A stretch of 64,000 bases of DNA from Cellulosimicrobium cellulans (GTDB lineage Bacteria; Actinomycetota; Actinomycetes; Actinomycetales; Cellulomonadaceae): assembly GCF_006539945.1 (NCBI RefSeq), contig NZ_BJNZ01000001.1:124001-188000 (forward strand), in the 5' to 3' direction. The translations under genes were made by a program, and so were the position numbers. Below, in pieces: positions 6,058 through 59,968 of the stretch. The notes under the pieces were generated by a model. The model was not told the DNA's origin and did not search any database. It saw nothing but the letters and a program-made list of their open reading frames with translations. The first letter of the stretch is position 1. Every line of letters begins with the position of its first letter.

Positions 6058-7284
6058 GTGAGCAGCAGCACGCCCGGCTCCGCGTGGGTCGTCGGGCTCG
6101 ACGTCGGGGGCTCGGGGAGCCGCCTCGTCGCGCGGCGTCTCGACGACGTCCGACCGCCCGGCGCACCGTCGAGCGCGCGGGACGTCGCCCTCGCCGGCCG
6201 ACCGGTCGCGATCGGACCCGCCGGGAGCGACGCGGCGGACGTCGTCCGCGACCTCCTCGCGCGGCTCCGCACCGAGGTTCCCTCGCTGGCGCACGACGGC
6301 GTCGCCGCGGCTGCCGTCGGGGCGACGGGCCTCGCGTCGCTCGTCCGCGACCCCGCCGAGCTGCACGCCGCCCTCCGCGCCGGCCTCCTCGCCCCCACCC
6401 CGACCCCCGTCGAGCACGACATGAAGGTCGTTCTGGGCGGAAAGACGACCTTCACGTCGGGTTCGACGGCGGGCGCTGTCGTGCTCGGCGACGGCACGTC
6501 GGACGGGGGCGGGCCGCGGACGGCGGTCGCGGCCGACGCGCTCACCGCGCACCTGGGAGCGCTGGGCGGACGGCCCGGGGCCGTCGTCGCGGTCGGGACC
6601 GGGGCGATCGCGCTCGGCACGGACCTGCGCGACGTGTGGCACCGCGTCGACGGCTGGGGCCACCTGCTCGGGGACCTGGGCTCGGGGTCGTGGATCGGGG
6701 CGCAGGGGCTGCGGGCCGCGGTCGCCGCGCACGACGGTCGCGACAACGGCGGTTCGGCGGCGCTGCTGGCCGCCGCGACGGAGCGGTTCGGCCCCGTGCC
6801 GACCTGGCCCGAGCAGCTCTACACGCGTCCCGACCGGGCCCAGGTGCTCGCGTCGTTCACGCCCGATGTCGCGGCGGCGGCCCGCGACGGCGACGCCGTC
6901 GCCCGGCAGGTCCTGGCCGGTGCGGGCACGCACCTCGCGACGACGCTCGCCGCGGCGCTGGTCGACGGCGTCCCGCCCCTGGCCGCCGCGACCGGCGGCG
7001 TGCTGGGGATCGGCCCGCTGCTCACCGACGCCTTCCGCGCACGCCTCGCGGTCCTGCGCCCCGACGTCGAGCTCGTCGACGCGGCCGGCACCCCGCTCGA
7101 CGGCGCGCTGCACCTGGCCGCGCGCCTCGCGACAGACCCGGGCTCCGTCGTCGGGCACGAGCCGTGGCTCACGCTCGGCGGCCCAGCCACGGCCGTGCCT
7201 CACGACCCGACCGACGCCCGGCACCGGACCGGTCCGCAGAGCCCGACCCACCCGCAGCACCCGACCATCACCGAGGAGGACTGA
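6058..7284 (+). CDS. BadF/BcrAD-type amino-sugar kinase (GlcNAc/MurNAc kinase-like), carrying an in-frame REP element
   Basis: A 408-residue ASKHA-fold kinase. The phosphate-binding motif is WVVGLDVGGSGSR near residue 10; the second ATP motif is AVVAVGTGAIALG near 180, followed by DGWGHLLGDLGSGSWIG, the signature of N-acetylglucosamine/N-acetylmuramic acid kinases (MurK type), and a C-terminal adenosine motif (ATGGVLGIGPLL). It would phosphorylate an amino sugar released from cell wall or chitin at C6. Residues about 118-137 (VEHDMKVVLGGKTTFTSGST) are encoded by a 59-bp palindromic repeat also found at 59914-59968, so this loop, just before the conserved AADALTAHLGAL block, is an insertion. 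First gene of an operon with an RpiR regulator and a D-lactate-dehydrogenase-like enzyme; GTG start is leaderless. Confidence 0.8.
   Translation: MSSSTPGSAWVVGLDVGGSGSRLVARRLDDVRPPGAPSSARDVALAGRPVAIGPAGSDAADVVRDLLARLRTEVPSLAHDGVAAAAVGATGLASLVRDPAELHAALRAGLLAPTPTPVEHDMKVVLGGKTTFTSGSTAGAVVLGDGTSDGGGPRTAVAADALTAHLGALGGRPGAVVAVGTGAIALGTDLRDVWHRVDGWGHLLGDLGSGSWIGAQGLRAAVAAHDGRDNGGSAALLAAATERFGPVPTWPEQLYTRPDRAQVLASFTPDVAAAARDGDAVARQVLAGAGTHLATTLAAALVDGVPPLAAATGGVLGIGPLLTDAFRARLAVLRPDVELVDAAGTPLDGALHLAARLATDPGSVVGHEPWLTLGGPATAVPHDPTDARHRTGPQSPTHPQHPTITEED
6409..6467. repeat. REP-like palindrome, family A, inside the kinase gene
   Basis: Two 23-base arms (6409-6431 and 6445-6467) pair with three mismatches around a 13-base centre. 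The left arm matches the left arm of the palindrome at 59914-59968, with its two flanking bases, at 23 of 24 positions (shared core GAGCACGACATGA-GGTCGT). The copy is translated in frame. Confidence 0.8.
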
Positions 7285-59878: not shown

Positions 59879-59920
59879 CACCGCACGCGGTCGAGCACGA
59901 CACCGCACGCGGTCGAGCAC
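59877..59920. repeat. Tandem duplication of 22 bp
   Basis: The 22-base unit beginning GACACCGCACGCGGTCGAGC occurs twice in a row (59877-59898, 59899-59920) and ends inside the left arm of the family-A palindrome; the first unit overlaps the stop codon of the upstream gene. Confidence 0.85.
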
Positions 59921-59968
59921 GACATGAGGGTCGTTATCCGACGGATAACGACCCTCATGTCGTGCTCG
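59914..59968. repeat. REP-like palindrome, family A (intergenic copy), possible bidirectional terminator
   Basis: Perfect 27-base arms around a single A (55 bp). Located between two convergent genes. Its left half matches the element inside the kinase gene at 6409-6467. Confidence 0.9.

Follow-up and report, generated by a model that had tools for sequence, protein, structure and literature searches.

Within the 64,000-nucleotide stretch of the Cellulosimicrobium cellulans genome analysed here (the window), a gene for a MurK/BadF-type amino-sugar kinase (positions 6058-7284, forward strand; Pfam BcrAD_BadFG, 58 bits; start from a codon-score gene finder) contains a palindrome in its coding sequence, which raises the question of whether this segment is ordinary kinase sequence or a repeat inserted in frame. 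The structure closest to that of the kinase is MurK 8zo3_A (best Foldseek match, E = 2.8e-14). An imperfect palindrome at 6409-6467, 59 bp long with 23-base arms and encoding about 20 inserted residues, had been proposed from the sequence. The palindrome is present there, with arms and fold well beyond chance, and the insertion is in frame; the size of the unit had to be corrected. The left arm (6411-6432, forward strand, matched with 0 mismatches) and the right arm (6444-6465, forward strand, found by inverted-repeat search), both placed by an alignment of 45 copies, are 22 bases each and flank an 11-base centre, giving a palindrome of 55 bp (6411-6465). A third arm of 22 bp (6466-6487, forward strand), of the ACGGCGGG....GTCGTGCTCG type and matching the third-arm pattern with 0 mismatches in the minus-strand reading, belongs to the full element. 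The palindrome plus this arm make the inserted stretch ~77-80 bp or 27 residues long. The in-frame inserted segment, supported by orthologues, pLDDT and dN/dS, covers 6409-6489 (forward strand) and encodes the peptide VEHDMKVVLGGKTTFTSGSTAGAVVLG (residues 117-143). The inverted-repeat search at this site reports arms at 6401-6431/6445-6475 with 84% complementarity, and the RNA fold of 6405-6490 has an energy of -51.4 kcal/mol (z = -5.96). The arm sequence GCACGACATGARGGTCGTT is found at three places in the window at up to three mismatches, compared with 0.03 expected from shuffles.

In the genome from which the window is taken (G000; 4,595,203 bases in 62 contigs), the arm is not confined to two places: with three mismatches or fewer allowed, each strand has 39 matches to it, and the reversed-pattern control gives 0. 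A covariance model built from the alignment of 45 copies of the element (A1) yields 126 matches on both strands at E <= 0.1, corresponding to 67 distinct loci; six weak matches (E 1.9e-5 to 2e-3; three genic, two tandem and one divergent) were dropped, and 6 of the remaining 61 loci lie at contig or locus ends and are unclassifiable, which leaves 55 classified copies. Arm count and covariance model both bear out a dispersed multi-copy palindrome family. The classified copies comprise 22 in convergent, 23 in tandem and 3 in divergent spacers, and 7 that overlap a gene, so that 48 of the 55 are intergenic, whereas random placement in the window would put ~91% in genes (genes being called by a codon-score finder trained on the window, not by a published gene caller). 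A stop codon is located 3 to 95 bp (median 18) from all 45 convergent and tandem copies. Convergent spacers account for 533 of the 6307 spacer bases in the window, yet hold 22 of the 48 intergenic copies. The element is thus REP-like in the wide sense, that is, a multi-copy palindrome that is chiefly extragenic and located 3' of genes. Loci from other genomes gave 39 palindromes, a number that includes some double counts from overlapping loci, of which 18 are tandem, 15 convergent, 2 divergent, 3 unclassified and 1 genic (NadB-type). We also noticed that some contigs of G000 start or end within a few bases of a palindrome (C7:1-83, C15:103778-103862, C43:1-85 and C47:1-87), which suggests that the hairpin breaks the assembly at contig ends.

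The 46 copies read share one layout: CGC, the palindrome CGARCACGACATGRGGGTCGTT-N11-AACGACCCYCATGTCGTGYTCG and usually then a one-sided third arm of type ACGGCGGGTGNNGTCGTGCTCG. The third arm is recognisable (at least 18 of 22 positions matching) in 36 of the 46, the copy in a MobA-like gene being among the ten that lack it. The CGA..ACGA heads are invariant in 45/45 aligned copies, and the kinase copy is a complete element, its three arms agreeing with the consensus of the genome and keeping the fixed spacing. Of five covariation measures over the 27-pair stem, three were reached by 0 of 500 shuffles and the other two by 3 and 1; these shuffles leave in the kinship of the copies, and a slid-partner control is lower on every measure. 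The other palindrome of the window is an intergenic copy between convergent genes (59914-59968, minus strand), detected by inverted-repeat search, whose arms (59914-59940/59942-59968) are 100% complementary; the third-arm pattern places its third arm at 59892-59913 (minus strand), next to a partial repeat at 59880-59891. Third arms in short tandem runs (~19-22 bp) are seen beside some palindromes, as at C1:238613-238672 of G000 and at 59880-59913 of the window. The motif CGARMACGAC occurs at 23 places in the window, mostly outside the two palindromes, compared with 2.2 expected from dinucleotide shuffles, an excess that may be explained by codon usage. No Rfam structured RNA matched at gathering score in six loci (22,153 bases).

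A protein-level search for kinase orthologues gave matches in 73 of 150 genomes, and 20 proteins, out of 25 readable ones from 30 loci, were aligned. The insert is present in four of the 20 (G000, G088, G146 and, decayed, G138), with no carrier outside Cellulosimicrobium; the others have short loops without those residues, so that the same residues are not found where the palindrome is missing. Loop length is variable among the relatives anyway, and the exact insertion boundary cannot be fixed from the coding empty sites because the loops vary in length and sequence. In the AlphaFold2 model of the kinase (20 sequences, mean pLDDT 79.7), residues 117-148 have pLDDT < 50 and lie between helix 98-109 and strand 153-158. 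Orthologue alignment, AlphaFold2 and Foldseek thus support the original prediction of an in-frame insertion in a MurK/BadF-type kinase, at a loop that varies among relatives and is modelled with low confidence. The corresponding loop of the G124 kinase (L035) begins with CCGCCGAAGG and contains GTCGACGGCG; judged from these residues, it is possibly the remnant of a deleted element, in which case the kinase insertion may be older than the four species.

The kinase is not the only protein affected, which supports the original interpretation: six genes of G000 carry the element in frame, the five others encoding an amidohydrolase-like protein (L066; Pfam Amidohydro_1, 15.4 bits, below cut-off), a phosphopantetheinyl-transferase (PPTase)-like protein (L079; ACPS, 20.1 bits, cut-off 25), a MobA-like nucleotidyltransferase (L009; 96 bits) and, with the copy at the C-terminus, a xylose-isomerase-like protein (L146; AP_endonuc_2, 27.5 bits, cut-off 31.1), which we take to be EboE-like, and a flavoprotein (L018; FAD_binding_2, 248 bits), presumably L-aspartate oxidase (NadB). 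The seventh gene overlap (C14:102994) covers the 3' end of an ORF only. Four of the six genic copies have a common reading frame (AEHD.. / VEHD..), with a peptide in the PPTase-like, EboE-like and NadB-type proteins similar to that of the kinase; in the MobA-like and amidohydrolase-like genes the element is read in other open frames. The PPTase-like insert is found in 8 of 13 orthologue loci (G000, G065, G098, G112, G049 and G088; degenerate in G146 and G129) and is missing from G106, G124 and G032, while G078 has an unrelated short loop and G138 is counted in neither group. The MobA-like insert is present in 3 of 15 orthologues (G000, G049, G088); nine have a short loop, and G112, G098 and G106 a longer one. 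This longer loop (L206, L208, L209) is a different, unrelated stretch at the place where G000 has the element. The NadB-type C-terminal copy is common to G000 and G138. Further matches to the insert peptide in G049, G088 (twice), G098, G146 and contig C30 of G000 are intergenic according to the gene finder and were not counted as in-frame cases.

Once inside a gene, the peptide is weakly constrained. In the kinase, dN/dS is 0.62-1.7 for the insert and 0.12-0.16 for the core, and the pooled values for G000, G088 and G146 are pN 0.17 and pS 0.18 in the insert versus 0.03 and 0.17 over the 213 codons behind it. In the PPTase-like protein (ten pairs, five genomes) they are pN 0.08 and pS 0.15 in the insert versus 0.02 and 0.14 in the rest, so that here the constraint is weaker than in the rest of the gene yet not fully neutral. 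These counts exclude the decayed kinase insert of G138 and, for the PPTase-like gene, the degenerate inserts found in G088, G146 and G129.

Between genes, by comparison of G000 with G088, the pairing of the hairpin is maintained. From 17 pairs of copies, 13 were used (10 intergenic, 3 genic; the orthology of some rests on one flank only), and four that are out of register or decayed were omitted (C1:238647, C1:120460, C1:214046 and C1:292198). Among the 220 stem pairs of the intergenic copies, two-sided changes number 11 versus 2.5 expected, and 7 of these 11 are Watson-Crick in both genomes; the genic copies have 0 among 66 (0.5 expected), a sample too small on its own. Stem pairing is 77% in genic versus 88% in intergenic copies, the former figure coming from only three copies. 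With all 17 pairs and 27 pairs per stem, 35 two-sided changes are counted versus 18.0 expected. The compensatory pattern between genes could come from selection on the hairpin or from one arm copying the other. At one of the omitted pairs (C1:120460 of G000 and L190:866 of G088), the spacer is orthologous and each genome carries such a hairpin there, but the arms differ in sequence, as though another subfamily had taken its place.

The covariance model finds matches in 17/17 Cellulosimicrobium genomes at E <= 0.001; at most the best 150 candidates were scored per genome, and the copy counts are therefore lower bounds. Across the family, at least 39 of 121 genomes and at least 11 of 25 genera match at 1e-5, under stricter filters and with at most the best 37 candidates scored. 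A 47-base palindrome pattern (36 fixed bases) is found exactly only in C. cellulans PW and C. funkei U11 within the collection searched, which may omit the window's own genome. Three genomes of other genera (G011, G073 and G104) share the palindrome layout, in many copies together with the third arm, and have arms of different sequence. Mean arm identity is 0.84 within G000 (4005 comparisons) and 0.82-0.88 within each of these three (8, 8 and 7 copies), compared with 0.65-0.68 between G000 and them, a range that is if anything too high because the other-genus copies are the best matches to a model built from G000; copies of G031, misread by the palindrome finder, were left out. As far as sequence comparison can tell, the genus-specific consensus argues for turnover and not for simple descent of fixed copies.

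As for what moves the element, the original prediction had suggested checking for a REP-associated transposase of the RAYT/Y1 kind. G000 gives no Y1_Tnp (PF01797) match at E <= 1 and the other 16 genomes of the genus give none at E <= 0.01, which takes RAYT out as mobiliser for the sampled genomes; among 150 family genomes the domain occurs in one, G075, which has no arm match. A source gene flanked by copies was also considered, and rejected for those intervals between close copies that were read: inspection by eye revealed no recombinase-like protein there, either in the triple cluster on contig C6 (108362, 111056, 111925) or between other close pairs. This cluster (C6:108362-112009) has spacings of ~2.7 kb and 0.9 kb and esterase-, chitinase- and asparaginase-like neighbours (named by eye from sequence), and similar ones are seen in G088 (L192), G098 (L193) and G112 (L197). 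No target-site duplication is apparent in the 35 copies whose third arm is clear and whose flanks are complete, where the mean best flank repeat is 2.86 versus 2.88 (sd 0.13) in 200 shuffles, the exact ends of the element being uncertain.

Both flanks of 16 G000 copies were located in the stretches of G088 that were fetched, and at four of these sites G088 has no palindrome. At C1:285225 a right-end piece is kept, which is best read as a deletion; at C1:183888, C1:234104 and C1:252198 the G088 spacer sequences are largely different. No clean recent empty site is thus found among the 16, so that we infer amplification from the distribution of copies. The mobility predicted for the palindromes is inferred from their copy number, genus-specific sequence and presence or absence. 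Targeting of surface loops as a rule is not supported: most copies adjoin stop codons, and those inside genes are most plausibly what survived where an insert is tolerated.

Taken together, we consider it probable that a REP/RPE-like hairpin of ~80 bp has been copied through Cellulosimicrobium genomes and is translated as a tolerated loop when it lies in genes. The element (55-bp palindrome, usually with the 22-bp third arm) would spread by a copy-making process, presumably transposition, and the surviving copies would be mostly those just 3' of stop codons, where a hairpin harms least and may help to define 3' ends. Since more than one frame of the element is free of stops, as the six genes show, the rare genic insertions would be translated. 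In the kinase, the insertion would have given a loop of ~27 residues, predicted to be disordered, that evolves nearly neutrally as a spacer, its hairpin decaying meanwhile. More tentatively, and with rather less confidence than in the element itself, a mobilising enzyme might exist outside the RAYT/Y1 class, having co-diverged with the element genus by genus in this actinobacterial family, each genus keeping the layout of palindrome plus third arm with an arm sequence of its own. If so, the in-frame proteins would be a by-product, usable as dated insertions to catch the activity.

Other readings of these data have to be weighed. One is that this part of the kinase gene simply encodes a variable loop and is palindromic by chance; in its favour, the loop differs in length among relatives anyway. 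We give it practically no credence, as its three arms fit the genomic consensus at fixed spacing, the arm matches in the window far exceed the shuffled expectation, and a similar peptide in the unrelated PPTase-like, EboE-like and NadB-type proteins refutes it. More serious, though in our judgement unlikely, is the proposal that, in place of a mobile element, these are hairpins selected by the host for a role at 3' ends (as terminators or for RNA stability) and copied by recombination, the genic copies being accidental. The short distance between copies and stop codons, the over-representation in convergent spacers and the compensation between orthologues that keeps the stem paired are all as this proposal would have it. 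Against it, the stems of the copies read lack a trailing T-run, the copies in tandem spacers are not clearly biased in their orientation relative to the upstream gene (14 vs 9, a count that includes copies of uncertain orientation lacking the third arm), the invariance of the CGA..ACGA heads is more than a terminator requires, and some copies are inside genes.

A third possibility is that the repeats are sites for a DNA-binding protein, for example in chromosome organisation, and have spread as a functional site. The heads are fixed while the stem interior covaries, and the variants are genus-specific as if following a protein; we nevertheless regard this as improbable, as close-consensus copies range from 0 to 36 per strand among genomes of the same genus. 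The preferred reading, a hairpin element copied through the genus and tolerated in genes, bears on three matters. It extends peptide-adding palindromic elements to high-GC Actinobacteria, without the usual transposase and with at least 17 genomes of the genus available for comparison. One and the same repeat, with the hairpin kept between genes and decaying within them, allows selection acting on the hairpin to be told apart from that on the peptide. It is also a warning for annotation, as repeats are the source of loops and C-termini in some Cellulosimicrobium proteins.

No description of the element was found in the literature on Cellulosimicrobium palindromic repeats, judged by titles and abstract beginnings, and a search for repetitive extragenic palindromes with RAYT in Actinobacteria returned nothing. 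In-frame palindromes had been cited in the original prediction as known from Rickettsia; they are indeed described there, and in other bacteria too (PMC3733652, PMC2759123 and PMC2229807). The Rickettsia palindromic elements (RPE), according to PMC2229807, are 105-146 bp long with terminal inverted repeats and occur between genes as well as in frame within conserved enzymes, where they are tolerated, guanylate kinase being one case. Like RPE, the present element is in frame in several genes, and the kinase, PPTase-like and MobA-like proteins have orthologues without the insert. Unlike RPE, it is ~80 bp long, mostly three-armed and in an actinobacterial host.

Among enterobacterial and neisserial repeats, RU-1/ERIC, RU-2, RU-3 and NEMIS/Correia contribute open frames fused to genes, and these non-autonomous MITEs are ~100-170 bp long, a number of them having terminal inverted repeats as well as target duplications (PMC2759123 and PMC2229807). 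The present element resembles them as a small repeat fused in frame to genes; unlike them it is shorter and has no target duplication seen in 35 copies. Tagged REPs, according to Di Nocera 2013 (PMC3733652), are mostly located between convergent or tandem ORFs near 3' ends, with some genic, and REP dimers or grouped repeats encode 20-30 residues; the GTAG and CGTC classes are 20-40 bp long, the CGTC class having a stem of 8-9 bp and a loop of 4-5 nt. The word 'Actinobacteria' is absent from the main text of that paper by word search. As with the REP/BIME repeats described there, the Cellulosimicrobium palindromes are small, lie mostly in convergent or tandem spacers near 3' ends and are in some cases genic. 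They differ from GTAG REPs in the conserved end CGC-CGA without a GTAG tag (45 aligned copies) and in that no Y1_Tnp was found, and from CGTC-tagged REPs in their 22-bp arms, 11-base centre and 55-bp length. In-frame palindromic insertion is therefore already known, and what appears to be new is the family, the host group, the third-arm layout and the absence of a Y1 transposase from the sampled genomes of the genus. The element works like REP/RPE without having the features by which tagged REP families are defined.
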